DNA of 59,282 nucleotides from Victivallis vadensis (GTDB lineage: Bacteria; Verrucomicrobiota; Lentisphaeria; Victivallales; Victivallaceae). The notes beneath the pieces were generated by a model. That model made no database searches and was not told the origin of the DNA. It saw nothing but the letters and a program-made list of their open reading frames with translations. Below are positions 7,477 through 54,728 of the stretch, piece by piece (within the stretch, counting starts at the first letter, position 1; each line of letters begins with the position of its first letter). Made by a program: the position numbers and the translations under genes. The stretch is taken from contig NZ_QEKH01000033.1 of assembly GCF_003096415.1 (NCBI RefSeq), positions 1-59,282 on the forward strand, in the 5' to 3' direction.

Positions 7477-8535
7477 TCAGCGGCCGGAGTATTTCCGGTA
7501 CATCTGCTGATAGAAGAGTGCTTTTTCGACTGGAACGCTGGCGGGCAGATGGTTGCCGCTGGCCAGAATGAAGTTGTTGCGCTTTTTGCCCCAGGCGAGC
7601 AGGTCGGCCATGTACTGTTCGATTTCGACATGGCCGGCGGAAGTCAGGAAGCGGCAGTCGATGCCTCCGGCCATGCCGCAGCGGTCGCCGTAAAGCTCGC
7701 CGAAGCGGCGCAGATCCGAAGTCGGCTCCATGACCAGCATGTCGATACCGAGTTCCACGAAATCGCCGAAAAATTCGTCGATGGTGCCGTCGGAAGTGAA
7801 GATCACCTTTTTTCCGGCGGATTTGACCGGTTCGATCAGCCGCTTCAGGTAGGGGAAAATGGTTTCGCGATACCAGCGCGGATGGGTGACGGGGCCTTCG
7901 GTCCAGCAGAGGTCGTCATGCACCATCATCACCGGGACGGAGGTTTCGGCGAATGCGTCGAAGAACTGCTTCACCCAGTGGAAATAGCTCTCCACCACCT
8001 CCTTGAACTCCTGTTCGTACAGCCCCATCAGCAACAGCAGCTGTTCGATCCCGTAGATTTCGATCAGCCCGGAAAAGAGGGTGGTGTAGACTCCGGCGGT
8101 ACTCAGGACGCCGGGATAGCGCCGCTGAACCTCCGCATAGTCACGCTCGAAACGCTCCACCAGCTCCCGGCGCGGAAAGAACGTGTATTCTTCGCTGGGG
8201 CGGAGCCGGATCGCCTCCTCGATGTCGGGATAGGCGACGCTGGTTTCGGCGGTGAAATCGCTGCCGTCGGAGGCGAACACCGCATGTCCCATATCAGTGA
8301 CGCGTCCGCCGGCGGCGAGGATGGTCTCCCGGGAGACTGTGACATGCCAGTTCAGGCTGTAATCCCACTGTTGCACGAAGCGGCGGACCGCCTCCTCCCG
8401 GCTCTCCTCGCCGGTGATCTCGACGCCGGTGACGGCGGTGAGCAGTTCGAGGTTGCCTTCCACGCCGTATTCGGTGCGTGGAATCCGGTCCGATGCCTGA
8501 TTGCAGATGGCCGCCCAGCCGTGTTCGTATGACAT
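7477..8535 (-). CDS. Uroporphyrinogen decarboxylase-like protein (atypical metal site)
   Basis: A 352-residue protein of the URO-D/methyltransferase fold, with the family blocks VMMVHDDLCWTEGPVTHP and a C-terminal CGMAGGIDCRFL segment. In corrinoid-dependent methyltransferases of this family the strand after the active-site helix carries His-x-Cys-Gly that binds zinc; here the equivalent position reads FTSDGTIDEFF, so the zinc ligands are absent. It is therefore unlikely to be a classic MtaA-type enzyme and its reaction is unknown. It is the last gene of a minus-strand operon, 93 nt after a cytoplasmic glycosidase, which suggests a role in converting the released sugar. True haem-pathway HemE is unlikely given context and divergence. 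Confidence 0.72.
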   Translation of the reverse strand: MSYEHGWAAICNQASDRIPRTEYGVEGNLELLTAVTGVEITGEESREEAVRRFVQQWDYSLNWHVTVSRETILAAGGRVTDMGHAVFASDGSDFTAETSVAYPDIEEAIRLRPSEEYTFFPRRELVERFERDYAEVQRRYPGVLSTAGVYTTLFSGLIEIYGIEQLLLLMGLYEQEFKEVVESYFHWVKQFFDAFAETSVPVMMVHDDLCWTEGPVTHPRWYRETIFPYLKRLIEPVKSAGKKVIFTSDGTIDEFFGDFVELGIDMLVMEPTSDLRRFGELYGDRCGMAGGIDCRFLTSAGHVEIEQYMADLLAWGKKRNNFILASGNHLPASVPVEKALFYQQMYRKYSGR

Positions 8536-8628: not shown

Positions 8629-10506
8629 TCAGGAAATCATAGCGGGACGCCCTTCCCGAAAATCAGCTTCGAGTCTTCCGCCGCCCGGTTTCCCGAGGCG
8701 GAAGGAGAATTCCCGCCACGCGGCCGGGACCGCCGGGGCAAACTTCGGTGTGCCGTCCGAATCGAACTGCAGCAGCAGCTCGTTGACCGCCTGAATGAAG
8801 ATCCCTTCGGCGGTGGTGAACCACGGCCGGATGCCGCATTCGTAGATTTCAAACATTTCACCGAAACAGCCGGACTGGGCCGCTACCTCCTCCAGCAGCC
8901 GGACGGCGGCTTCGCCGTCGCCGCGCCGCGCCTGGGCGACCGCCTCCCAGCACAGATACCACGAACAGACGCCGCTGCCGAGCTGATACATATTGCCGCA
9001 GGCGCTCTTGAAATCCACATAGTCCCGGAAGGCTTCATGCTGCAACGGGTCATCCGCGGCCAGCACGCCGTACGGATAGATTCCGGCGAGCTGGCCGATG
9101 CTGTGTTCGGTACAGCCCGGATAGGGCAGGTAGCGGCCGTCGCCGTGCGGCAGCGACGCGCGCAGTCCGGCGGCGAGGCGGCGCCATTCGGCGGCGGATT
9201 CCGGGTGGAGGCCGAGCAGACCGGCGGCCGTCGCCGCCGCTTCAAAGGCGGCGATCACCGAACAGGAGGTCATAAAGGGATTCGGCCGGAGCGGGCCGAG
9301 CCGTTCGAGGTCGGTGCAGCAGCCGATCACGGTCCGCCCTTCCCGGTCGTACTGTACATGGAAAAGCCGCAGCCACTCGCAGCTCGCGCCGATCAGCGGG
9401 AAAAGCTCGGACCGAAGCAGTTCGCGGTCCCCTGAATACCGGTAGCATTCCCATGCCGTCAACGCCACGTGGGAGGCGTGGAAGATATGGTCGTACCAGA
9501 AGCCGCGCGGGGAATTTTCCTCGCAAAGCTCGTTGGTCTCCCACGGGTAGACCGCGACGCCGACCGGATTGCGCGGCCGGTCCCCTTCGATCCGGCGGCG
9601 CGCCTGCGGCAGCAGCGAGTGCCGGAAATGCGGAATCTTCGCGGCGGCGGCGAAGTGCCCGCTGGTCACCAGTCCCATGAAGGTGAAATATTCGTCGAAT
9701 GCGTGATAACGCCCGTGCCAGTGCGAATCGTAGATACCGGTCGGAATCGACCAGCGGGTCGACGAAATGCGCAGATGGTACTGGCTGGTTTCATACATCC
9801 GCCGGATCGGAGCGGATGGAATCCGGATGTACGACTCCTGCCGATAGGATTCCCATGCCCGGCGATTTGAGCCGAGCAGTTCGTCGAACTCCGCCGTTGC
9901 CTCGTCGTCGAACTTCAGGCAGAAGGTAAATTCCCGGGCCGGAATTTCCAGCACGAAACCGCCGTCCTCGGCATAGAAGCGGGAGGGCGCGTCGGCGGTC
10001 AGCGAAACCGTGCCCCGGTAGCGGCGCAGTCCGTCGATCTCGTAGCGGATCAGGCCGGAGCCGTCCGCATCGAGGCGGGCGCGGGCAGGGGCAAACCGGT
10101 AACGCAGCCGGTACGGCCCCGGCAGCGCAGTGGCAATCCGGCGGCGGACAGCCAGAATGTTGCGTTCCAGATGGCAGAAGGCGGTACTTTCGATCACGGT
10201 GCCGTCGCTGTAACGGCAGTTCGAAGTGACCACGCCGTCGGAATTGTCGAGCGACTGCTCCCATTCGACCGGTTCCCCGAGTCCGGCCATCTCGTGCAGC
10301 AGGTAGCCGAAACTGATCAGTTCGCCGCGCTGGGTGTCGTAGCGGAAGCCGGCCCGGCGGATGCCGGCGAGCAGTTTGCCGTAGCCGCTTTCAGTCTGGC
10401 GCTGGATGCCTTCGTAATCCAGCAGGATCGAGAGGTCCCCGTTGCCGAGGGCGGCGGGCGCATAACGGCGCGAAGCCGCTTCCAGATGGTTGGTGGTGAT
10501 TTTCAT
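8629..10506 (-). CDS. Cytoplasmic (alpha/alpha)6-barrel glycosidase-like protein
   Basis: A 625-residue protein without a signal peptide. The N-terminal third is beta-rich and the rest is helix-rich with many aromatic and acidic residues, for example SHWHGRYHAFDEYFTF, PWETNELCEE and CFGEMFEIYECGIRPWF. This layout is that of (alpha/alpha)6 glycosidases and phosphorylases of the GH65/GH95/GH78 type. I cannot assign a family; the acid residues in FDEYF and the EMFEIYE segment are catalytic candidates. It lies 12 nt downstream of the pseudopilin and upstream of the URO-D-like gene, so it probably acts on oligosaccharides brought into the cell after cutting by the exported enzyme of the same operon. 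Confidence 0.68.
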   Translation of the reverse strand: MKITTNHLEAASRRYAPAALGNGDLSILLDYEGIQRQTESGYGKLLAGIRRAGFRYDTQRGELISFGYLLHEMAGLGEPVEWEQSLDNSDGVVTSNCRYSDGTVIESTAFCHLERNILAVRRRIATALPGPYRLRYRFAPARARLDADGSGLIRYEIDGLRRYRGTVSLTADAPSRFYAEDGGFVLEIPAREFTFCLKFDDEATAEFDELLGSNRRAWESYRQESYIRIPSAPIRRMYETSQYHLRISSTRWSIPTGIYDSHWHGRYHAFDEYFTFMGLVTSGHFAAAAKIPHFRHSLLPQARRRIEGDRPRNPVGVAVYPWETNELCEENSPRGFWYDHIFHASHVALTAWECYRYSGDRELLRSELFPLIGASCEWLRLFHVQYDREGRTVIGCCTDLERLGPLRPNPFMTSCSVIAAFEAAATAAGLLGLHPESAAEWRRLAAGLRASLPHGDGRYLPYPGCTEHSIGQLAGIYPYGVLAADDPLQHEAFRDYVDFKSACGNMYQLGSGVCSWYLCWEAVAQARRGDGEAAVRLLEEVAAQSGCFGEMFEIYECGIRPWFTTAEGIFIQAVNELLLQFDSDGTPKFAPAVPAAWREFSFRLGKPGGGRLEADFREGRPAMIS

Positions 10507-26082: not shown

Positions 26083-27324
26083 ATGAAAAAGTCACACGAT
26101 CGTTCTCTGTGGGATATCCGGGATTTCGCCTTTGGCGACCAAGGCGCTTCGCTCTTGCACCCCGACCGGGCGGCAAGGTGCCGCTGCCGGGGGCGCGCGC
26201 CAATGCCCCTTCGGGGGGCGCGCGGCTGGCGGAGACAAACAAGATTACAGTTGGCCCTTTATGCCGCTCTGCGTGAAAGAGAGGGGCTCGGGGGAGAGAA
26301 AGCGGCGACTTGCGCCGCGTCTCTTCCCGTACCGAATATCCCTAACCTTTCACATACTCCCGGCAAGTTCTCACGCCTCTGCCAATGCTCTGCAAGCGGC
26401 AAGTCGGAGCAAAAACGTGAAGTTGCCTTTCCGCAAAAAAGCGGGAAGACAACTTCACGTTATTGCGGATCTTCTTCCCGCTGCCGACCGACCGCCCTTC
26501 CGCACTGCACCGCCTCGTACCCGGCACCGGCACCTTGCCGGACGCAGGGGGCGCGGGGGGCGGCGGACACGCCCCCCGCATACCGTCGCGTAAGGCCGAC
26601 CACCGTAAGATTCACCCTTATTGAGCTGCTCGTAGTGATAGCGATCATCGCAATTCTGGCGAGTATGCTGCTGCCCGCTCTGAACCAGGCGCGGGCGCGG
26701 GCGCAGAAGATTTCCTGCACCAACAACCTGAAACAGCTCGGCACCGGACTGGGACTGTACATCACCGATTACGGTCCGTTCTTCCCGGTGTACAGCAGTC
26801 CGACCGACTACTGGATGCGGGGCTGGGGAGGGACGCTGCTGCCGTATGTGGTGCCGAAACGGGAGGACGGGGTGGTTTCGCCGAAGAGCGGCAAGCTGTA
26901 CCACTGCCCGCTGGACCCGATCCCGGAACTGGCGGTCGGCTTCGGCGGTTTCGGGGAAATTTCGGCGCGCCGGAGCTATGTTTTCAACCAGGGAAAAGGG
27001 CTTGCTTCATCCGACGGCAACCAGTGCATCTATGTGGATCTGACGAAGCTGGACCGCAAGGACTCCAACGGCTCCGGCGCTCCCGGCATCATCGTGGACG
27101 GGATGAAGCGTACGAATACCGAGGGCGCGGTCGGCACCTATGACGCGAGCGCCTGCGACTACTGGGGGCTGATGAACTCCGGTGCGTACATGGGCCATCC
27201 CGACAACTCCCGGAACGCGCTGCGGCCGGATTTCTCGGTGTTCAGTTCCAACGAGGCGGCCTTTATCAACGAAGAGACGATCAAGCCCGGTTTCTATTAT
27301 GAGACCAATGCGATCCTGAAATAA
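26083..27324 (+). CDS. Pseudopilin-like protein with 176-residue repeat-derived leader
   Basis: A 413-residue reading frame. AGGGGGATGG precedes ATG 26083, which encodes MKKS. The prepilin signal [20 protein letters not shown] does not begin until residue 177; from there on it is an ordinary pseudopilin ([22 protein letters not shown]). Everything between is the dispersed repeat R3 translated in frame, rich in Arg, Pro and Cys. No start codon lies close before the true signal, so translation must run through the repeat if the protein is made. The C-terminal H-X9-DG motif is degenerate (H, nine residues, then PD). It lies 12 nt behind a glycosidase and 13 nt before the next gene. It may be a functional protein with a long leader or a gene on its way to decay. 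Confidence 0.75.
26105..26605. repeat. Dispersed hairpin-rich repeat, copy R3, inside a pseudopilin gene
   Basis: The largest copy. It begins with ATCCGGGATTTCGCCTTTGG, contains a forward core GGCAAGGTGCCGCTGCCGG at about 26171 and an inverted core CCGGCACCTTGCCGG at about 26526, so cores flank the element as inverted repeats. Inside lies a long hairpin (about 26415-26460) with outer arms ACGTGAAGTTG and CAACTTCACGT around an A-rich loop. Its outer limits coincide with the leader part of the pseudopilin frame. Limits approximate. Confidence 0.75.
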
Positions 27325-30282: not shown

Positions 30283-30657
30283 GACGCGAAGCGCCCCCGG
30301 CTACCGAAGGCCAGTCGCAGGGGAAGCCTGCCGTTTTGAAGGCAGGCGGGTCTGCTTGCCCTGCGGGCAGCAGACCTTGTGCGCTACGGTGCCTGATTTT
30401 CAATCAGGCACCGTAGCTGGGCGCTGTAGCGCACAAGTGTCTCCGACTGCCAACGGTTTCGCCGTTGGATCACGACCGGGCAGCACCCGGAGGCGAGTTC
30501 CGCCGATAGACCAAATAAACTGATAGATACTAACCCCGGTTTTGAATTTTTACTACGTAAAAATTCAAAACCGCACCCGGCGCCGGCACCTTGCCGGTCT
30601 GGGCCGACCGTCGGCTGCGGGGACGGGGGGCGAAGCGCCCCCGGCCGCCGGAGGCTA
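30283..30657. repeat. Dispersed hairpin-rich repeat, copy R4
   Basis: Non-coding, between the esterase promoter and the stop codon of the large glycosidase. It contains two long hairpins: a perfect 16-bp stem with loop TTC (30383-30417, arm GCTACGGTGCCTGATT) nested in an outer CTTGTGCGCTA/TAGCGCACAAG stem, and a 16- to 17-bp stem with loop TAC (30538-30572, arm GGTTTTGAATTTTTAC). Further parts are AATAAACTGATAGATA, the core GGCACCTTGCCGG (30585-30597), and GGGGGCGAAGCGCCCCC next to the gene end. R6 at 53055 has the same parts in inverse order. Confidence 0.85.
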
Positions 30658-45429: not shown

Positions 45430-45627
45430 GGGGGGGACGATTTATTCCAATTGGGTTCAATGCCTCGCCTCTTGGGGCGACTTTTACAAGTCCCGAAATT
45501 GTTTTTCGCATCGCGAAAAACAATTTCGTAGACGGCACCGGCACCTTGCCGGTCGGGGACCAGGGACGAAATGCCCTGGTCGCCAAAGGCGAAATCCCGG
45601 ATCCCCCGCTGCTTGCGGCGGGGAGGT
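45430..45627. repeat. Dispersed hairpin-rich repeat, copy R5
   Basis: Non-coding gap between two convergent genes. It contains a perfect 16-bp stem with loop ATC (45494-45528, arm CGAAATTGTTTTTCGC), the core GGCACCTTGCCGG (about 45540-45552), a GACCAGGG/CCCTGGTC hairpin (about 45559-45581) and GGCGAAATCCCGG. Order core-hairpin-CCCGG is the same as in R3 and R4, but the arms of the 16-bp hairpin are different in sequence. Confidence 0.8.
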
Positions 45628-47058
45628 TTATTTATCGGTGCCGAAGCCGGTGTCGAAAGGAGCGACCGGGACGCCGGCGCGGTTGACCAGATTGGGATTG
45701 GCCAGCTTGTCCCAGCCGAAGCGGAGCCGCACGGGGGCGCTCACTTCGGGAGAGGTCACGAAGAGTTTGTTGTCGCGGACCACGCCGGTGGCGGGATGGA
45801 AAAGCCCGTCCTCTCCGGCCAGCATCAGGTGCGAAACCGGTTCATTGTCGCGGGTGCGCAGGTCGTTGGGCTGGTTGAATTCGACGACGAAGGTCGAACC
45901 CTCCGCTCTGGCGCTGCGGAAGGTCGGCGCCAGCGCGGCGTCACTGCCGATGCCGTAGGCCTTGTAGAGCACCAGATTTGCGAGACGGCGGGCGAGCGGC
46001 ATCTTGTCGCGCGGATGGATATCCTTGGGATCGCCGCAGTCGGTGGTGGTGATGAAGCCGGCGTTGGAATCGTGTTCGGCGAAGTGCTGCTGGGCGGCCC
46101 AGAAGTTCGGGATCAGGGTCGACTTTTCCCGCCCGTACTGCCACGGCGGCAGCTGCACGATGAAGATCGGCATATCCGGATTGGCGAAGTAGGTGCGCCA
46201 GGTATGGGCGAGAGCGCGGAGCTTTTCGGCGTAGCGCATCCCTTCGGAGTGGTTGTCCTCGCCCTGATACCAGAGCATGCCGCGCACCGCAAAGGGGGTC
46301 AGCGGATGAACCATCGCGTTGAACAGCACGTTGGGCAGCCGCTGCTTGTCCTTGCGCAAATCGGCGTCCTTTTTGCTTTTCAGGTCGGCGATCTGCTTTG
46401 CAACCTCATCGGCGACCCCCTGGGTCACGGAGACGGCGGCGAAGGATTCCGGCGCGGTCATCGATTCGATCCGGCAGCCGCCCCACGAGATATTGATCAG
46501 GCCGATCGGAACGTTCAGCTTGCTCTGGAGGTCCCGTCCGACCAGATAGCCGACAGCGGAGAAGCGCGGAAGCGTCTGCGGCGAACAGAGGTTCCACTGG
46601 GCTTTCACGTCGGCCTGCGGTGTCCGGCTCCACACGTTCGGCACCTGGAAGAGCCGGATGTCGGGATTCGGAAACGCCTCGATCAGCTTGCGGCTGCCGG
46701 TGATGCTCTGCAACCCGTACTGCATATTGGACTGCCCCGCGCAGAGCCAGACGTCGCCGACCAGCACGTTGCTGCGGGTCAGGGTGTTGTCGCCCTTGAC
46801 GGTCAGCGTCGCTCCGTCGGAGGAGGCCGCGAGCGGTGCGAGCTTCACCTGCCACCTGCCGTCCTTGCCGGCGGTGGTGGAAACGGTCTGCCCGGCGAAC
46901 TGCACCGAAACCGCTTCTCCGGCGCGTCCGGTTCCCCAGACCGGCACCGCGCGGTCACGCTGCAGAACCATGTTGTCGGTGAAGATCGACGGCAGTTCCA
47001 CCGCCGCCAGCGGCAGCATCGTTCCGGCTGCCAGAAGGGAGAGCCAATTGTATTTCAT
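45628..47058 (-). CDS. Exported sialate O-acetylesterase-type SGNH hydrolase
   Basis: A 476-residue exported esterase. Signal peptide SLLAAGTMLPLAAVE; then the beta-rich LPSIFTDNMVLQRDRAVPVWG opening typical of the family, block I VWLCAGQSNMQYGL with the catalytic Ser, LINISWGGCRIESM, MLWYQGEDNHSE, and DPKDIHPRDKMPLARRLA with the catalytic Asp/His. Enzymes of this family remove acetyl esters from sialic acids or from plant xylan, so the substrate here may be any acetylated glycan. It is transcribed alone from a good promoter and is convergent with the glycosidase operon. Confidence 0.88.
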   Translation of the reverse strand: MKYNWLSLLAAGTMLPLAAVELPSIFTDNMVLQRDRAVPVWGTGRAGEAVSVQFAGQTVSTTAGKDGRWQVKLAPLAASSDGATLTVKGDNTLTRSNVLVGDVWLCAGQSNMQYGLQSITGSRKLIEAFPNPDIRLFQVPNVWSRTPQADVKAQWNLCSPQTLPRFSAVGYLVGRDLQSKLNVPIGLINISWGGCRIESMTAPESFAAVSVTQGVADEVAKQIADLKSKKDADLRKDKQRLPNVLFNAMVHPLTPFAVRGMLWYQGEDNHSEGMRYAEKLRALAHTWRTYFANPDMPIFIVQLPPWQYGREKSTLIPNFWAAQQHFAEHDSNAGFITTTDCGDPKDIHPRDKMPLARRLANLVLYKAYGIGSDAALAPTFRSARAEGSTFVVEFNQPNDLRTRDNEPVSHLMLAGEDGLFHPATGVVRDNKLFVTSPEVSAPVRLRFGWDKLANPNLVNRAGVPVAPFDTGFGTDK

Positions 47059-47140: not shown

Positions 47141-48070
47141 TCAGAGCAGACGGCGGGCGGCGAGGGCGCGTTTGCGGTATTCCGCCGGGGTGCAGCTGTA
47201 TTGTTTCCGGAACAGGTGGTAAAAGCGGCTCAGGCTCTGGAAGTTCAGCCGGTAGGCCAGTTCGGCGATCGATTCGCCGGAGTCGGCCAGCAGCCGGGCG
47301 GCGTGGTTGATCCGCAGTTCGTTGATGAATTCGGTCGGGGAGCGGTCGAGGTGCTTGCGGAACACTTTGCACAAATATTCCGGGGTGTAGCCGGAGAGCT
47401 GCTGCATCCGTTTGAGGCCGGGAATGAAATTCTCCGGGGTTTTCATCTTTTCGCACAAACTTTCCAGCCACTCCGGCGCGTCGGAGGAGCCCGGCGCGGC
47501 CTCCTGCGGCAGGAAGAACCGGGTGAAAAGCTCCGCCAGCAGTACCTTGAAACGGATTTTGCGGATCGCCGGAGTGATTCCCTGCGCATTCAGGCTCAGC
47601 AGCTCCAGGGAAAGCTCGTTCATCCGGCTTTCCGGCACCCGGAATACGGCGGGGAGCACGCTTTCGGTATAGCGGTGCAGGAAGGCGTCGTCCTCAAGGT
47701 AGCGGCTGATCGTCACGAAGAGTTCCAGGTGAAAGGAGAGCAACAGCAGTTCGCAGTCGGGCGCTCCGGGTGCGGGCAGGAAACCGTGGCGGTCGTCGGG
47801 GCGCACGAAGACCACGCTGTTCGGCTCCAGCAGCTGTTTTTCCCCGTTGACGCGGTGGATGATCGAGCCGGAGAGCAGGAAGATCAGCTCCCCGAACTCG
47901 TGGGAGTGTTCAACGGTCCCGCCGGAGGGCAGCGAATGGTAGTGCAGATTGCCGCCGCTGGGGATGAAGGACTGCTTACGCCCTGCGTTCCAGCTGATTG
48001 CGTGAAACGACACCTCCGCGCCGACCGCGGGATTGATGAAATTGTCCAATTCCAGTGTGATTGTTCCCAT
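47141..48070 (-). CDS. AraC-family transcriptional regulator with cupin sensor
   Basis: A 309-residue regulator. The N-terminal cupin has the metal/ligand motif VEHSHEFGELIFLLSG and a second block VVFVRPDDRHGF; the C-terminal AraC domain has MQQLSGYTPEYLCKVFRKHL and IAELAYRLNFQSLSRFYHLF. Start ATG 48070 is chosen to match the family; ATG 48094 is possible and neither has a good ribosome-binding site. It diverges from the corrinoid operon and precedes the esterase on the same strand, so either could be its target. Confidence 0.82.
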   Translation of the reverse strand: MGTITLELDNFINPAVGAEVSFHAISWNAGRKQSFIPSGGNLHYHSLPSGGTVEHSHEFGELIFLLSGSIIHRVNGEKQLLEPNSVVFVRPDDRHGFLPAPGAPDCELLLLSFHLELFVTISRYLEDDAFLHRYTESVLPAVFRVPESRMNELSLELLSLNAQGITPAIRKIRFKVLLAELFTRFFLPQEAAPGSSDAPEWLESLCEKMKTPENFIPGLKRMQQLSGYTPEYLCKVFRKHLDRSPTEFINELRINHAARLLADSGESIAELAYRLNFQSLSRFYHLFRKQYSCTPAEYRKRALAARRLL

Positions 48071-48173
48071 GTAGATTAATATAGAGCAAAACATTGCAAA
48101 AGAAAAGAAGATATTCCGGAAAAAATCGGGTAAAATATAAGAAAAGTACTACAAACGAGTAGGAGATTTGCCG

Positions 48174-49187
48174 ATGCACCACGATATGAAGCGTTTTGTC
48201 CGGGAGATTCTGAAGTCTCCGCGCCGCCGTGCGATCCCGATCATGACCAGTCCGGGGATCGACCTGATCGGCGCGAAGCCGGTCGAGGTGTTCCGCGACG
48301 GCGCGCTGCAGTTCCGCTGCATTCAGGCGTTGGCCGGGGCGGTGCATGCGGATGCGCTGGTCACGTTCATGGATTTGTCGGTGGAGGCGGAGGCGTTCGG
48401 TTCGCCGGTGCGGTATTCGGAACACGAGAATCCGACCGTCTCCGGCAGCATCGCTTCGACGCCGGAGGCGATCGACGCGCTGGCCGTCCCCGAAGTCGGA
48501 GCGAAACGGACCGCCGAAGTGCTGCGCTGCGCCGAGCTGTGCGCGGCCAACTTCGACCGTCCCGTGCTGGGCGGCATGATCGGGCCGTTTTCGCTGGCCG
48601 GGCGGCTGGCCGACATGACCGAGATCATGATCCTCGCCGCGATGGAGCCGGAGGCGGCGGCGCGGCTGCTCGGCAAGACCACCGCGTTTCTGACCGGATA
48701 CGCGAAGGCGATCCGTTCGACCGGCGTGAACGGGCTGGTGATCGCCGAACCCGCCGCCGGGCTGCTTTCGCCCGATATGTGTCGGGAGTTCGCCGCCGAC
48801 TATCTGAAAAAGATCATCGCGGCGGTACAGGACGATGATTTCATGGTGGTGCTGCACAACTGCGGCAACGCCGCAAACCGGCAGATCTCGGCGCTGGTTT
48901 CGACCGGGGCCGCCGCGCTCCACCTCGGCAATGCGGTTTCGCTGCCGGAACTGCTGCCGCAGATACCGCCGGAGGTGCTGCTGATGGGCAACATCGACCC
49001 GGTCGGCGTGCTGAAGAACGGCACGCCGGAGGAGGTTTACGCGAAAACCGCCGGATTGCTGCGCGAAACCGCGGCGTGGCCGAACTATGTGCTTTCCTCC
49101 GGCTGCGACGTGCCGCCGGGCGTGAGTCTGGAGAATATCCGCGCGTTTTTCCGCGCGTTGGACGATTACAACCAAACCGTAAAATAA
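48174..49187 (+). CDS. URO-D-family corrinoid methyltransferase (MtaA/MtbA-like)
   Basis: A 337-residue cytoplasmic methyltransferase of the URO-D fold. The zinc-binding His-x-Cys is present in VVLHNCGNA and the third ligand in LSSGCDVPPG, matching methylcobamide:acceptor methyltransferases of the MtaA/MtbA type. AGGAG precedes ATG 48174; TTG 48168 is less likely. It is the first gene of a tight operon with a corrinoid protein, a second URO-D enzyme, a reductive activator and DUF1638. Known MtaA homologues methylate coenzyme M in methanogens; the acceptor in this bacterium is unknown. Confidence 0.85.
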   Translation: MHHDMKRFVREILKSPRRRAIPIMTSPGIDLIGAKPVEVFRDGALQFRCIQALAGAVHADALVTFMDLSVEAEAFGSPVRYSEHENPTVSGSIASTPEAIDALAVPEVGAKRTAEVLRCAELCAANFDRPVLGGMIGPFSLAGRLADMTEIMILAAMEPEAAARLLGKTTAFLTGYAKAIRSTGVNGLVIAEPAAGLLSPDMCREFAADYLKKIIAAVQDDDFMVVLHNCGNAANRQISALVSTGAAALHLGNAVSLPELLPQIPPEVLLMGNIDPVGVLKNGTPEEVYAKTAGLLRETAAWPNYVLSSGCDVPPGVSLENIRAFFRALDDYNQTVK

Positions 49188-49203
49188 CAGGGAGTATCGG
49201 ACT

Positions 49204-49827
49204 ATGACTGACTTCGAAGCCTTGCGCGCCGCCGTGATCAAGGGCAAACGCAACGACGTCGCCGCGATCGTGCAGGCCGCGATCGACGGGGGCGAGGACA
49301 TCAACCTGATTCTGGACCGGGGAATGATTCCGGCGATGCGGGAGATCGGCGACAAGTTCTCCCGCAACGAGGCTTATGTGCCGGAACTGCTGATCGCCGC
49401 GCGCGCGATGCAGGCCGGGCTGGCGCTGCTGGAGCCGCTGATCGCCGCTTCCGGCCGCAAGTCGATGGGCAAGGTCGCGATCGGCACCGTGAAGGGCGAC
49501 CTGCACGACATCGGCAAGAATCTGGTCGCGATCATGCTCAAGGGGGCCGGATACGATGTGATCGACCTCGGCGTGAACTGCGACATCACCAAATACGAGG
49601 AAGGCGTGAAGCAGGGGGCGACCATCATCGGGTGCAGTTCGCTGCTGACCACCACGATGCCGTATATGAAGGAGGTGGTCGCCTACTTCAAGGACAAGGG
49701 GGTCAAGGTGGTGATCGGCGGCGCGCCGGTCACGCAGGCCTATGCGGATGAGATCGGCGCGGACGGCTACAGCGAAGACGCCAACGGTGCGGTGAAGCTG
49801 ATCGATTCGCTGCTGAAAACGGCGTGA
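49204..49827 (+). CDS. Corrinoid (B12-binding) methyl-carrier protein
   Basis: A 207-residue cytoplasmic protein of the MtaC/MtbC/MtgC type. Residues 1-85 form the helical cap domain and residues 90-207 the cobalamin-binding Rossmann domain with the ligand histidine in GDLHDIGKN (D-x-H-x-x-G), then IGCSSLLTTTM and VKVVIGGAPV. It carries a methyl group on cobalt between the two URO-D methyltransferases encoded on each side. Spacing is 16 nt from the gene before and 10 nt to the gene after. Confidence 0.93.
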   Translation: MTDFEALRAAVIKGKRNDVAAIVQAAIDGGEDINLILDRGMIPAMREIGDKFSRNEAYVPELLIAARAMQAGLALLEPLIAASGRKSMGKVAIGTVKGDLHDIGKNLVAIMLKGAGYDVIDLGVNCDITKYEEGVKQGATIIGCSSLLTTTMPYMKEVVAYFKDKGVKVVIGGAPVTQAYADEIGADGYSEDANGAVKLIDSLLKTA

Positions 49828-49837
49828 GGCTTTTCTG

Positions 49838-50920
49838 ATGGAACCCCTGTGCGGGAGAGAACGGGTCGGTCGGCAGCTGAAACACCTGCCGGTCGACCGC
49901 ATCGCGGTCAGCGAGGAGTTCTGGAGCTACACGATCCGCCACTGGGAGGAGCAGGGCAAGCTGCCGCCCGGCACGGATGCGGTGGAGCATTTCAAGCTGG
50001 ACCTCGACAAATGCTGGGCGTTCAACCTCCGGATCGACCCGGAGATGGCGGACCGGCTGGTCGCCGAGGATGAGGAGACTCAGACTTTCGTCGACGGCAA
50101 CGGGGCGACGTTGCGCCGCTACCGGTCGCACGCCTCCACCCCGGAACATATCAACTTTTCGGTTGTGGACCGGAACGACTGGGAGGAGAAGGCGAAGCCG
50201 TTCCTGACTCCGACCGCAAACCGGATCGACTTTGAAGGCTACCGCGCCGTGCGGCGCGCCTGTGCCGACGCGGGCCGTTTTTTCCTGTGGAGCGGGGTGA
50301 ATGTATTTGAGTCGATGCACCCGATCTGCGGCCATGAAAATCTGCTGATGGGCATGGCGCTCGACCCGGAGTGGGTTTCCGAAATGGCGGAGGTCTATTC
50401 CGACCTGATCATCCATCTGTGGGAGACGCTGTTCGCCGCCGAGGGCAAGCCGGACGGAATCTGGTTCTACGAGGACATGGGATTCAAAGGACGGCCTTTC
50501 ATGTCCCCGGAGATGTATCGGGAACTGATCATGCCCGCGCACAGAAAGACCATCGATTTCGCGCATTCGCTCGGATTGCCGGTGGTGATGCATTCGTGCG
50601 GCTTCGTCGAGCCGCTGCTTCCCTACATGGTCGAAGCGGGGATCGACTGTCTGCAGGCGATGGAGGTGAAGGCCGGGATGGACCTGCTGCGCATCTACCG
50701 GGATTTCGGGGAGAAGATCGCGCTGATGGGCGGGCTGGACGTGCGTCCGGTTGCGAACAACGACCTGCCCGGCATCCGGCGCGAGCTGGAGACCAGGATT
50801 CCGGTCGTGAAAGGGCGCAACGGCTTCATCCTGCACTCAGACCACTCGATCCCGGAATCCGCCGAGTACGAAAGCTACCGGTATTTCCTCGAAACCGGGC
50901 TGGAACTGGGGAGGTATTGA
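49838..50920 (+). CDS. URO-D-family substrate:corrinoid methyltransferase
   Basis: A 360-residue cytoplasmic protein of the URO-D family. The zinc motif MHSCGFVEPLLPYM is intact, preceded by GIWFYEDMGFKGRPFMSPEMY and followed by IALMGGLDVRPVANND and LHSDHSIP. Its sequence is more like the URO-D-type O-demethylases than the MtaA-like protein at 48174. I infer that it transfers a methyl group from a methoxylated substrate to the adjacent corrinoid protein; the substrate is unknown. Its stop overlaps the activator start by one base. Confidence 0.82.
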   Translation: MEPLCGRERVGRQLKHLPVDRIAVSEEFWSYTIRHWEEQGKLPPGTDAVEHFKLDLDKCWAFNLRIDPEMADRLVAEDEETQTFVDGNGATLRRYRSHASTPEHINFSVVDRNDWEEKAKPFLTPTANRIDFEGYRAVRRACADAGRFFLWSGVNVFESMHPICGHENLLMGMALDPEWVSEMAEVYSDLIIHLWETLFAAEGKPDGIWFYEDMGFKGRPFMSPEMYRELIMPAHRKTIDFAHSLGLPVVMHSCGFVEPLLPYMVEAGIDCLQAMEVKAGMDLLRIYRDFGEKIALMGGLDVRPVANNDLPGIRRELETRIPVVKGRNGFILHSDHSIPESAEYESYRYFLETGLELGRY

Positions 50921-52341
50921 TGCAGCTGACCCTCAAGGCGGACGGCAGGAAGAATCTGGCGGAGCAGCTCGCCGCGGCGGGTTATCCGCTGGATCTGCGC
51001 TGCGGCGGCAACGGCACCTGCGGCCGCTGCCGGGTGCGCCTCCGTTCGGGAGAGTGGGAGACGGACGGCAAACCCGTGTCCGTCCCCGCCGAAGTCAACG
51101 CCTGCCGGACCCGCCTGACCGGGCCGGAGGGGGAAGTGGAAATCCCGGAGCGTTCGCTGGCGGTCCGGCAGGGCAAGGTGGCCGCCGCATGGCGCAGCCG
51201 CCCGCTGCCGGAGAGCCGGGAGAGCGTGATCGCGGTTGACCTCGGCACCACCACCGTGGCCGCCGTGAAGCTCTGCAACGGCGAAATCGTGCGGGAAGCG
51301 ACCTGTTTCAACCGGCAGAGCCGGTTCGGCGACAATGTGATTACCCGGATCAACCATGTCGGAACTTCTTCTGGTGCGCTTGAGGAGTTGCGCATGGCGG
51401 CGGTGGAATCCGTGAACGAGCTGCTTGACCGGCTGGAACCGGATGGGGCGGCCCGGATCGCGCTGGCCGGAAACACCGTGATGAGCTGCCTGTTCCACGG
51501 GATCGATCCGTCGCCGATCGGCGTGATGCCGTTCACGCCTCCCTGTCGGATTTTTCCGGTGCGCGGCGCGGCGGAGCTGGGATTGCGGGCCGGGGATATC
51601 CCGGTGCTGACGGTTCCGGCGATCGCCGGATATGTCGGCGGCGACCTGACGGCGGGGCTGCTGGAGACGCCGCTGCGTCCCGGCGAACTGCTGGTGGATA
51701 TCGGGACCAACTGCGAAATCATCCTGCAGACGGAGCAGGGGATGTTCTGTACCGCCGCTGCCGCCGGTCCCGCGTTCGAGGGGGCCGGAATCCACTGCGG
51801 CAGCCGGGCGGTTCCCGGCGCGATCGACCACTATTTCGGGCGGAACTCCTGTTCGGTGATCGGCGGCGCGGCTCCGGCCGGGTTGTGCGGTTCGGCGATG
51901 ATCGATTTTCTGGCGGTCGAACGCCGGTTGGGGCACCTGAATGAATTCGGGCGCATCCAGCCGCCCGCCGATTGTTTTGAAGCCGCGCCCGGCGTTACGA
52001 TTTACGAGTGGGAGATCGAGCAGCTGCTGAAGGCCAAGGCCGCCGTCCGGGCCGGGATCGCGACGCTGGCCGCTTACTGCAGAACTCCGGTGAAGAAGCT
52101 CTTCCTCGCCGGCGGTTTCGCCCGGTATCTTGACTTCGGCAACGCGGTCGCGTGCGGGATGCTCCCCGATTGCGAACTGGAGGCGGTCGGCAACACCAGC
52201 CTCGGCGGCGCCGCGCGGCTGGCGGTTCAGCCCGGACTGGCGGCGGAGCTGGAGCGGCTGATCGACCTGCCGAAAGATATTCCGCTGAATCTTCTGGACG
52301 AATTTGAGGACAACTACATCGACGGATTGCTGCTGCCATGA
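50920..52341 (+). CDS. Reductive activator of corrinoid protein (RamA/RACE-like)
   Basis: A 473-residue protein. The N-terminus is a 2Fe-2S ferredoxin domain (CGGNGTCGRCRVRLRSG with a fourth Cys in VNACRTRL), and residues from about 105 form the ASKHA/DUF4445 domain (VIAVDLGTTTVAAVKL, ALAGNTVMSCLFHGI, LLVDIGTNCEIIL, LFLAGGFARYLD). Such proteins use ATP to return inactive Co(II) corrinoid to Co(I). The frame is open far upstream, but ATG 50920 overlaps the previous stop (TGATG) and starts exactly at the ferredoxin domain. The next gene overlaps by ATGA. Confidence 0.9.
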   Translation: MQLTLKADGRKNLAEQLAAAGYPLDLRCGGNGTCGRCRVRLRSGEWETDGKPVSVPAEVNACRTRLTGPEGEVEIPERSLAVRQGKVAAAWRSRPLPESRESVIAVDLGTTTVAAVKLCNGEIVREATCFNRQSRFGDNVITRINHVGTSSGALEELRMAAVESVNELLDRLEPDGAARIALAGNTVMSCLFHGIDPSPIGVMPFTPPCRIFPVRGAAELGLRAGDIPVLTVPAIAGYVGGDLTAGLLETPLRPGELLVDIGTNCEIILQTEQGMFCTAAAAGPAFEGAGIHCGSRAVPGAIDHYFGRNSCSVIGGAAPAGLCGSAMIDFLAVERRLGHLNEFGRIQPPADCFEAAPGVTIYEWEIEQLLKAKAAVRAGIATLAAYCRTPVKKLFLAGGFARYLDFGNAVACGMLPDCELEAVGNTSLGGAARLAVQPGLAAELERLIDLPKDIPLNLLDEFEDNYIDGLLLP

Positions 52342-53054
52342 AGTACAAGGTCATCTCCTGCAACGTGTTCAAGCGTGAAATCGAATATGCGGCCGCCCGT
52401 TCGCCGTATTCGCTCGAAATCGAGTTCCTGGAACTCGGCGAACACGCCCGGCCCCGTGAACTGCGCCGCAAACTTCAGGAGCGGATCGATGCGATCGACG
52501 GCTTCGACGCGGTGCTGCTCGGCTACGGCCTCTGCGGGACCGCCACCGACGGGCTGGCCGCCGGAAAAGTGCCGCTGGTCCTGCCGCGCAGCCATGACTG
52601 CTGCGGAATCCTGCTGGGCAGCCGGAAGCGGTTCGAAGAGCTGTTCGCCGACATGCCCAGTTCGCCGTTCGGTTCGGTCGGCTTCGTGGAGCATGGCGAC
52701 TACTATTTTTCCGACGGTGAGATGCTGTTCGGCGACGGCTATGCCGCGCTGGTCGAACAGTACGGCGAGGACGACGCCCGCTATATCTGGGACGCGATGC
52801 ACCCGAAGCTCGACGGGCGGCTTCAACCGATCACCTTCATCGCGATTCCGGAAATTCCCTGTGAGGAAGCGATGGCGCGCTGCCGGGCCAGAGCCGACGA
52901 AGAGGGCCGCGCGTTTCAGGTGGAAACGGGAAGCCTGCGCCTGATTCGCGGGCTGCTGGCGGGCAACTGGGACGAAAGCGAATTCCTGATCGTGCCGCCG
53001 GGCCGCTCGGTCCGTCAGGTCGGCGACTGGAATGAAATCATCCGCCTCGCGTGA
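52338..53054 (+). CDS. DUF1638 protein of the corrinoid operon
   Basis: A 238-residue cytoplasmic protein recognised as DUF1638: KYKVISCNVFKREIEYAA, DAVLLGYGLCGTATDGL, LVLPRSHDCCGILLGSR, and the C-terminal LIVPPGRSVRQVGDWNE. The conserved Cys pair in SHDCCG suggests a metal site. DUF1638 genes are commonly found next to corrinoid methyltransferase genes; their function is not known. It overlaps the activator gene by ATGA and is the last gene of the operon; repeat R6 starts directly after its stop codon. Confidence 0.85.
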   Translation: MKYKVISCNVFKREIEYAAARSPYSLEIEFLELGEHARPRELRRKLQERIDAIDGFDAVLLGYGLCGTATDGLAAGKVPLVLPRSHDCCGILLGSRKRFEELFADMPSSPFGSVGFVEHGDYYFSDGEMLFGDGYAALVEQYGEDDARYIWDAMHPKLDGRLQPITFIAIPEIPCEEAMARCRARADEEGRAFQVETGSLRLIRGLLAGNWDESEFLIVPPGRSVRQVGDWNEIIRLA

Positions 53055-53445
53055 TGCCTCCGGCGGCCGGGGGCGCTTCGCCCCCCGGTCCCCCCGACCG
53101 GCAAGGTGCCGGCGCCGGGTACGGTTTTGTAATTTTTACTGCGTAAAAATTACAAAACCAGGGGGTATTATCTATCAGTTTATTGGCTCTAGCGGCAGTA
53201 CCTGCCTCCGGGTGCTACCCGGTCTGGGTCAAGGAGCGAAGCGCCCTTGTCGTCGAAGACATCTGTGCGCTAAAGCGCTCAGCAGCGCACAAGGTCTGCT
53301 GCCCGTCAGGGCGGGCAGACCCGCCTGCCGCGAATGCGGCATGGCTTCTTCCCGTCCCTCGCTGGCAAGGTGGCGTTGCCGACCGGGGAGTAATCATGGG
53401 GGCGCGAATGCGGCACGGCTGTGACCGGGCGAAAATAATTGATTG
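53055..53445. repeat. Dispersed hairpin-rich repeat, copy R6
   Basis: Inverse copy of R4: GGGGGCGCTTCGCCCCC beside the gene end, the core CCGGCAAGGTGCCGG (about 53098-53113), a 17-bp stem with loop TGC (53123-53159, arm GGTTTTGTAATTTTTAC), TATCTATCAGTTTATT, a GTGCGCT/AGCGCAC stem, and AGGTCTGCTGCCC. A second, divergent core GGCAAGGTGGCG lies near 53352. The central hairpin has one extra T/A pair relative to R4 in both arms. Confidence 0.85.
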
Positions 53446-53675: not shown

Positions 53676-54728
53676 ATGCTGGAGCAATATCTGGAAGACC
53701 TGGAGAATCGTCTCGATGCGGCAGTGGAGGAGGAGCTCGAAGCGGAATGGCGTCTCTTTCTGGACGGATGCTGTCCGGGGCCTTATTTTCGTCCGCGGCG
53801 GCGGCAACCGGCTCCGGCCCGGATCGAATGGCCGAAAATCCGAATCAATCCGGCCCTGAAGGATTTGGAGTTGATGCTGCTGCGCGAGCTTGCGGCGGTT
53901 TCCGCCAACGTTGCGGAGGGGAACGGGCAGATTCTGAACATCCGTTGCAACTACGGCACTACGATCCTGCCGTCGCTGTTCGGCGTCGGGATTTTCTACA
54001 TGGATGACGAACACGATACGCTTCCCGCTTCGCACGCATTGCCGGGCGGCGCCGACGGCATCCGGGCTCTGGTGGAGGCGGGCGTGCCGGATTTCAATCG
54101 CGGCTGGGGGCCGCGGGTGTTCGAAACGGCGGCTTATTACCGGGAGAAGCTGAAGCCCTACCCGAAACTGAGCGAATACATCCGGCTCTACCATCCCGAC
54201 CTGCAGGGGCCGCTGGACCTCGCCGAAATGATCTGGGGCAGCGGTATTTTCATGGAGTTCTACGACAACCCGGAATTGGTCAAATCGTTCCTGGCGCTGC
54301 TGACGGAAACCTACCGGCGGTTCATGCGCCGCTGGAATGAGCTGGCGCCGCCGCTGAACGACCGCTTCCCCGCCCACTGGGGATGGGGACACCGGGGAAA
54401 GATTGTGCTGCGGGACGATTCCGCGATGAACCTCTCTCCGGAGATGTACCGGGAGTTCGCGCTGCCGTTCGACCGGCAGCTGCTGGAGGAGTTCGGCGGC
54501 GGCGTGGTCCATTTCTGCGGTCGCGGCGACCACTACATCGATCTGCTGGCCGAGGTGCCGCAACTGACCGGAATCCAGCTCTCCCAGCCGGAATACAACG
54601 ATATGGAAAAGGTCTTTCAACACACCGTCGACCGGGGGATTCCGCTGCTGGCGCTGTCGGTGGAGCGGGGCGTGGAGCCTGCGCTCGCCGCCGGCCGTGA
54701 GCTTCACGGCCGGGTACACTGCTATTGA
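53676..54728 (+). CDS. URO-D-family protein (probable methyltransferase)
   Basis: A 350-residue URO-D-fold protein. The strand after the active-site region carries VHFCGRGDHYID, i.e. an intact His-x-Cys-Gly metal motif, followed by LTGIQLSQPEYND. AGGGGAGGAG precedes ATG 53676; the longer frame from 53547 overlaps the remnant gene. It has no corrinoid protein of its own but could use the carrier of the operon 4 kb upstream. It is convergent with an AraC gene. Confidence 0.75.
   Translation: MLEQYLEDLENRLDAAVEEELEAEWRLFLDGCCPGPYFRPRRRQPAPARIEWPKIRINPALKDLELMLLRELAAVSANVAEGNGQILNIRCNYGTTILPSLFGVGIFYMDDEHDTLPASHALPGGADGIRALVEAGVPDFNRGWGPRVFETAAYYREKLKPYPKLSEYIRLYHPDLQGPLDLAEMIWGSGIFMEFYDNPELVKSFLALLTETYRRFMRRWNELAPPLNDRFPAHWGWGHRGKIVLRDDSAMNLSPEMYREFALPFDRQLLEEFGGGVVHFCGRGDHYIDLLAEVPQLTGIQLSQPEYNDMEKVFQHTVDRGIPLLALSVERGVEPALAAGRELHGRVHCY

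Follow-up and report, generated by a model that had tools for sequence, protein, structure and literature searches.

The closest described relatives of the locus analysed here are corrinoid-dependent methyl-transfer systems that employ proteins of the uroporphyrinogen decarboxylase (URO-D) superfamily. The published mlp gene clusters (MGCs) combine several URO-D proteins with a corrinoid protein and a RACE-type reductive activase, lack a tetrahydrofolate (H4F) methylase and have been linked to methyl-sulfur and methyl-selenium compounds; according to Kountz and Balskus, a His-Cys-Cys zinc site goes with S/Se-methyl transfer and substituted sites go with O-methyl transfer (PMC10418091). B12-dependent methionine synthesis in Phaeobacter requires both a DUF1638 gene and a RamA-like gene (PMC5764234). 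In a Victivallis vadensis contig (NZ_QEKH01000033.1; the whole stretch of 59,282 nucleotides is called the window below), we find an operon at 48174-53054 that unites URO-D proteins with a corrinoid carrier, CorP. We read it as a corrinoid methyl-transfer hub in which O-methyl sugars would be the donors and one URO-D protein, UROD1, would unload CorP to a thiol, and give this reading as a whole an even chance; that the operon proteins and a further URO-D protein, UROD3, form one module is nearly certain. The features are as follows.

AraC-family regulator, 47141-48070, minus strand: divergent from the operon; the open reading frame reaches 48094, with the likely start ATG at 48070
Conserved operator/promoter element TTAATATAgAGCAAAAcattGCAAAAgAAAAGAAGA, 48076-48111, plus strand: two GCAAAA half-sites
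UROD1, 48174-49187, plus strand: MtaA-like URO-D protein with the His-Cys-Cys zinc motif HNCG...SSGCD; proposed methyl-Co:thiol methyltransferase (acceptor side)
CorP, 49204-49827, plus strand: corrinoid methyl carrier protein with a B12 cap and a B12-binding domain
UROD2, 49838-50920, plus strand: URO-D superfamily protein with the site HSCG...HSDHSIP (H-C-H, without the third Cys); proposed donor:CorP methyltransferase
RACE, 50920-52341, plus strand: RACE/RamA-type corrinoid reductive activase with Fer2, Raco_middle and RACo_C_ter domains
DUF1638 protein, 52338-53054, plus strand: probable helper of corrinoid reactivation
UROD3, 53676-54728, plus strand: distant URO-D superfamily member with an HFCG motif; second proposed donor methyltransferase
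UROD4, 7477-8535, minus strand: further URO-D protein, behind a gene for a glycosidase of the glycoside hydrolase (GH) family 95 type (8629-10506, minus strand)

A five-gene operon with the composition of an mlp gene cluster

The five genes are tightly packed, with intergenic spacings of 16 bp and 10 bp followed by overlaps of 1 bp and 4 bp, and an AGGAG sequence lies 8 nt 5' of the UROD1 ATG at 48174. Pfam searches assigned URO-D domains to UROD1 (6.6e-57) and UROD2 (1.5e-15), DUF1638 to the last gene product (5.8e-23), and B12-binding and B12-binding_2 domains to CorP, giving it the cap and binding domain of a corrinoid methyl carrier. The domains of RACE correspond to the ASKHA and Fe-S domains of a RACE/RamA activase, and the protein matched the RACo structure 3zyy at 1.1e-62. 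The operon gene sets are seen again in related genomes, which excludes chance as their origin. With the domains in agreement and the gene sets recurring, the tight five-gene operon of the original prediction is borne out in order and extent, and the two further URO-D proteins that it mentioned, UROD3 and UROD4, are indeed encoded in the window.

By composition, the operon is an mlp gene cluster as defined previously (PMC10418091): genes for at least two URO-D proteins, a corrinoid protein and a RACE lie within 2 kb in the same direction, and within 20 kb no H4F methylase homologue was detected, either among the genes scanned or in a whole-genome Pterin_bind search. As in type 1 MGCs, several URO-D proteins accompany one corrinoid protein and one bacterial RACE per operon, and UROD1 corresponds to the SCMT-like protein with a His-Cys-Cys site. 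If the published assignment applied here, all the URO-D proteins would act on methyl groups bound to S or Se and serve the salvage of methionine or selenium, as the site of UROD1, a mark of S/Se-methyltransferases (PMC10418091), would also suggest. However, the operon departs from type 1 MGCs in its zinc sites and its glycan setting. UROD2 (H-C-H) and most companion URO-D proteins do not have the His-Cys-Cys site, which is described as invariant among type 1 proteins apart from some Mlps1. Neither next to the operon nor in the conserved neighbourhoods scanned did we recognise a sulfur or selenium gene (no search for selenium genes was made in the rest of the genome); these neighbourhoods instead show glycosidases, sugar transporters and LacI, AraC and GntR regulators. 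Further differences are the presence of DUF1638 and an arrangement in which one CorP appears to serve URO-D proteins scattered over the genome. We therefore consider a purely sulfur- or selenium-directed function unlikely.

Other systems share parts of this design. The proposed scheme resembles that of methanogen MtaABC, with URO-D proteins on both sides of the carrier. MtvB, OdmB, VdmB, MtoB, CdmB and CmuA are likewise URO-D donor:corrinoid methyltransferases, and a CmuA-like URO-D/corrinoid fusion occurs in Bacteroides relatives; in contrast to those systems, a second URO-D protein here replaces the pterin-type second methyltransferase and there is no acetyl-CoA synthase. The split methionine synthase of Phaeobacter and Ruegeria has in common with our operon a small corrinoid protein, RACE and DUF1638 (PMC5764234, PMC12478193), whereas the operon contains URO-D proteins and no proteins with homocysteine (Hcy) methyltransferase or pterin domains.

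UROD1 is the common partner of CorP

UROD1 aligns with the zinc ligands of MtaA (4ay7), His-x-Cys and a distant Cys, and thus shows the fold and site of the MtaA/MtbA type. It resembles the coenzyme M methyltransferases MtaA, MtbA and MtsA in fold family, aligned His-Cys...Cys ligands and proposed acceptor-side role, but scored only 127.5 and 145.2 bits against the NCBIfam MtaA/MtbA subfamily models (cut-offs 235.4 and 244), and the host is not expected to make coenzyme M.

A scan of one genome per species yielded at least 584 matches to UROD1, of which 80 relatives with 44-86% identity were kept; they come from Victivallales, Clostridia, Bacteroidota, Smithella and others. A CorP homologue lies within 8 kb in about 60 of the 80 loci, RACE is present in 28 and an AraC gene in many. 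In Bacteroidota, 21 loci (e.g. L165, L167 and L168) contain a stand-alone MetH activation domain (PF02965), and this protein may replace the RACE activase in that phylum. DUF2284 is a frequent neighbour of the clostridial UROD1 loci. At the threshold used, related genomes have one UROD1 copy or none, mostly adjoining CorP and sometimes elsewhere.

The zinc-ligand columns of UROD1 read H-C-C in all 77 aligned rows. The corresponding columns of companion URO-D proteins (68 rows) vary, with H-C-H in 12, D-D-H in 12, H-C-C in 8 and other combinations, including H-D-C, in the remainder. In line with the published link between the zinc site and the kind of methyl group transferred (PMC10418091), we place UROD1 on the thiol side of CorP and its companions on the donor side; judged by its sequence, UROD1 probably holds the acceptor position.

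Companion URO-D proteins and their co-occurrence with CorP

Of 289 genomes of the phylum, 42 have a UROD2 orthologue (44-87%), and 40 of these 42 also have a stand-alone CorP. In some genomes the gene is part of the operon, whereas in others it is distant from CorP; the motifs HSCG, EVKAGMD and SDHS are invariant. An AlphaFold model of UROD2 (predicted local distance difference test score 95.4), which Foldseek matched to HemE and MtaA, supports together with these motifs a URO-D-fold enzyme with an H-C-H site.

UROD3 scored 26.8 bits against Pfam URO-D, and the best structural match of its model is MtaA (4ay8). Its orthologues (48-82%) adjoin CorP/UROD1 in Victivallales, other Lentisphaeria and Oscillospiraceae, and we assign it to the CorP system. 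In Bacteroides, a URO-D domain that is a distant UROD3 homologue by profile (91.5%) is fused to CorP in three loci (L207-L209, two of them near-identical), a CmuA-like architecture that stands beside GH31 and GH141 genes.

We compared 65 related genomes, 44 with a stand-alone CorP and 21 without. URO-D genes are present in 44 of 44 CorP-positive genomes, at 1 to at least 26 per genome, and in 2 of 21 CorP-negative ones (19 have none), a count that ignores phylogenetic relatedness and is weakened to that extent. Within the window's own family the figures are 15 of 15 and 0 of 19 (Fisher p ~5e-10, shared ancestry ignored). The URO-D proteins thus behave as clients of one carrier, CorP. As their presence tracks CorP, with several to at least 26 copies in most CorP-positive genomes and none in 19 CorP-negative ones, a role in heme synthesis is unlikely, and we rejected it.

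A shared operator

AraC orthologues (41-94%) adjoin UROD1/CorP/UROD2 in most related genomes, and alignment of the AraC-operon intergenic regions revealed a common 36-nt element. This element matched 22 times in the 2.5 Mb of DNA searched, always 5' of UROD1, UROD2 or CorP (a few of the 22 loci are the same record counted twice), while a reversed-sequence control gave no match in 2.5 Mb. It precedes whichever of the three genes comes first and is also found before UROD1 genes located apart from CorP (L130, L135 and L136), indicating that the parts of the system are tied together independently of adjacency. Simple promoter and terminator scans returned no more than expected by chance. The original prediction, which placed URO-D enzymes on either side of the carrier, thus finds indirect support in the H-C-C site of UROD1 as opposed to the variable companions, the co-occurrence with CorP, the shared operator and the URO-D-CorP fusions.

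Methyl acceptors in the host genome

The genome of the window (5.2 Mb, 99.5% complete) has a total of 7-9 URO-D genes, and another RACE gene lies outside the operon; its only proteins with a corrinoid cap (PF02607) are CorP and MetH. A Pterin_bind search of the whole genome returned a DHPS-like (folP) gene (279 aa, 226 bits; contig C43) and MetH (contig C7), and hence, apart from the domain of MetH itself, no stand-alone pterin-type methyl acceptor. CdhC, the acetyl-CoA synthase, was not found in the genome. These results close the acetogenic route, and acetogenic O-demethylation, which relies on a stand-alone pterin methyltransferase and the acetyl-CoA synthase pathway, was rejected. The absence of a pterin-type acceptor, first proposed for the operon, therefore holds genome-wide, and the contrast drawn with the O-demethylase clusters of acetogens was right.

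These findings also bear on methoxyaromatic compounds as donors, for instance ferulate released by feruloyl esterases. MtvB, OdmB, VdmB and MtoB are URO-D proteins that act with a corrinoid protein and a RACE activase (PMC13222342), and a BD-FAE feruloyl/acetyl esterase-like gene adjoins the UROD2 orthologue in L056. However, the known systems send the methyl group to H4F by a pterin methyltransferase and then into the acetogenic pathway, for which the stand-alone enzyme and CdhC were not found here, and the associations with GH31, GH141, GH92 and GH38 favour sugars. We regard an O-demethylase of this type as improbable.

Alternatively, UROD1 could also work on the donor side, and methyl-CorP would be unloaded elsewhere in the synthesis of methionine, for example by an Hcy methyltransferase or the domains of MetH. 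The genome's MetH (803 aa) has Hcy, pterin and two B12 domains and lacks the activation domain, and MetF is fused to an Hcy domain. Stand-alone Hcy-methyltransferase genes beside CorP in L163, L090 and L169 hint that methionine is the methyl sink in some genomes, pterin methyltransferases lie within loci L144, L162, L201 and L101, and a Ruegeria corrinoid protein is common to betaine demethylation and methionine synthesis (PMC12478193). Such acceptor genes are rare, however (3-4 loci each among the 80 UROD1 loci and the CorP/UROD2 loci examined), and CorP's common partner is UROD1 with its invariant thiol-type site. Unloading to methionine away from UROD1 thus seems rather doubtful, and we lean towards a thiol, rather than H4F through MetH, as the acceptor. 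A URO-D gene with a DxDG...CDHRCPP site adjoins the MetH gene (L083, 9902-11098; G000:C7), and the same type is found in CorP operons of other genomes; a protein of this type is a possible bridge between MetH and CorP.

Candidate methyl donors

In Alistipes, Paludibacter and Bacteroides, the core of the system is kept in altered gene order beside an SSF symporter, GH31 and GH141. The GH31 protein of these clusters matches PDB 5f7c, which we take to be BT_0339, over its full length. BT_0339 is listed as an alpha-xylosidase (PMC10434189). For BT_0340, BT_0342 and BT_0343, only the annotation as corrinoid proteins is known (PMC8941943); the URO-D/CorP fusion and UROD1 of Bacteroides thetaiotaomicron are probably among these three. 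The GH141 protein matches BT1002 (7e-135), which frees 2-O-methyl-xylose-alpha-1,3-fucose from rhamnogalacturonan II (RG-II) pectin (PMC10154630). Other Bacteroidota loci contain GH92, GxGYxYP proteins and MFS transporters. In the window's genome, a gap of 12 bp separates a GH38 alpha-mannosidase gene from the URO-D gene that follows it, and UROD4 comes after the GH95-type gene. Owing to the SSF/GH31/GH141 clusters of relatives and the sister URO-D genes behind GH38 and GH95 genes, O-methylated sugars freed from glycans are the leading candidates, although on these genomic associations we hold their role as donors evenly in the balance. Of the donor classes raised by the original prediction, they are thus the best supported, albeit with UROD2 lacking a direct tie to a sugar; for methylamines, we found no support.

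Demethylation of quaternary amines or methylamines would follow if the annotation of relatives were taken at face value. CorP scores best with the MtgC, MtbC and pyl_corrinoid models, but all scores are far under the model cut-offs. Moreover, the context is carbohydrate, and we recognised no MttB, MtmB or MtbB next to the operon (no genome-wide search for these enzymes was made). To our knowledge, these amine methyltransferases are not URO-D proteins. Relatives in Bacteroides thetaiotaomicron are listed as methylamine/trimethylamine corrinoid proteins (PMC8941943); on balance, we consider amine donors very improbable.

Several observations weigh against O-methyl sugar donors with UROD1 on the thiol side. 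The operon's own neighbourhood points to no substrate, nothing links UROD2 itself to a given sugar, and UROD2 orthologues adjoin varied genes, some of them unrelated to glycans. GH141 is absent from the window's genome and most relatives; we therefore rejected it as a donor marker in this genome, where the pectin disaccharide of Bacteroidota would not be the donor by that route. In favour of sugars, recurring GH families are commoner near Bacteroidota loci (17 of 87 genes) than in random regions of the same genomes (2 of 94), but this difference is inflated by homologous clusters counted repeatedly, and the count leaves out single-hit families. Bacteroidota genes 4.5-8 kb away are as carbohydrate-rich as those nearby, and a comparison of near with far gene families therefore does not discriminate. 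A possible third Cys in UROD3 (C349) makes a clean thiol/non-thiol split uncertain, and UROD1 could demethylate a thioether instead. In addition, UROD1 orthologues were not found in 3 of 20 genomes with a close CorP (identity above 70%; G285 and G132 have none, G279 only one at 35%), and G117 and G159 have URO-D genes although a stand-alone CorP was not found.

Proposed mechanism and implications

In the mechanism we propose, donor-specific URO-D proteins (UROD2, UROD3 and probably scattered ones such as UROD4) would take the methyl group from a methylated compound and load it onto the cob(I)alamin of CorP, the carrier that they share. UROD1 would then pass it on to a thiol, for instance homocysteine or sulfide; RACE, together with the DUF1638 protein, would restore inactivated CorP to Co(I), and the divergent AraC regulator would turn the operon on through the operator at 48076-48111.

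Diets and plant litter commonly contain methylated sugars, which occur in pectin RG-II and in other glycans. A non-exhaustive search of the open-access literature revealed no described anaerobic enzyme that takes an ether methyl group off a sugar, and nothing relevant on corrinoid sugar demethylation, Kiritimatiellota corrinoid systems or Lentisphaerae URO-D methyltransferases. We tentatively suggest, with somewhat less than even confidence, that many URO-D proteins among glycan loci are corrinoid-dependent O-methyl sugar demethylases with one carrier and one thiol methyltransferase in common, and that the Bacteroides arrangement of GH141, GH31, symporter, URO-D/CorP and UROD1 frees, imports and demethylates the 2-O-methyl-xylose of RG-II. 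If true, this would be the step so far missing from accounts of how gut bacteria use methylated sugars. Such a system would let anaerobes reclaim sugar and methyl group alike, would account for the large "uroporphyrinogen decarboxylase" families (reaching 26 or more per genome) in Victivallales and relatives, and would tie vitamin B12 supply to gut glycan use. The donor idea is directly testable, the Bacteroides version in a genetically tractable species.

Neighbouring features

A SASA gene (sialate O-acetylesterase-like; 45628-47058, minus strand) adjoins the AraC gene. A close relative encodes a glycyl radical enzyme, similar to pyruvate formate-lyase, downstream of its operon (L105, 8661-10898). 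Between DUF1638 and UROD3 stands a GC-rich, non-coding dispersed repeat (53055-53350) that also occurs at 30323-30655, 26516-26562 and 45527-45590; it shares 73% identity with the copy near 30.5 kb across 340 nt and contains an inverted repeat at about 53123-53159.

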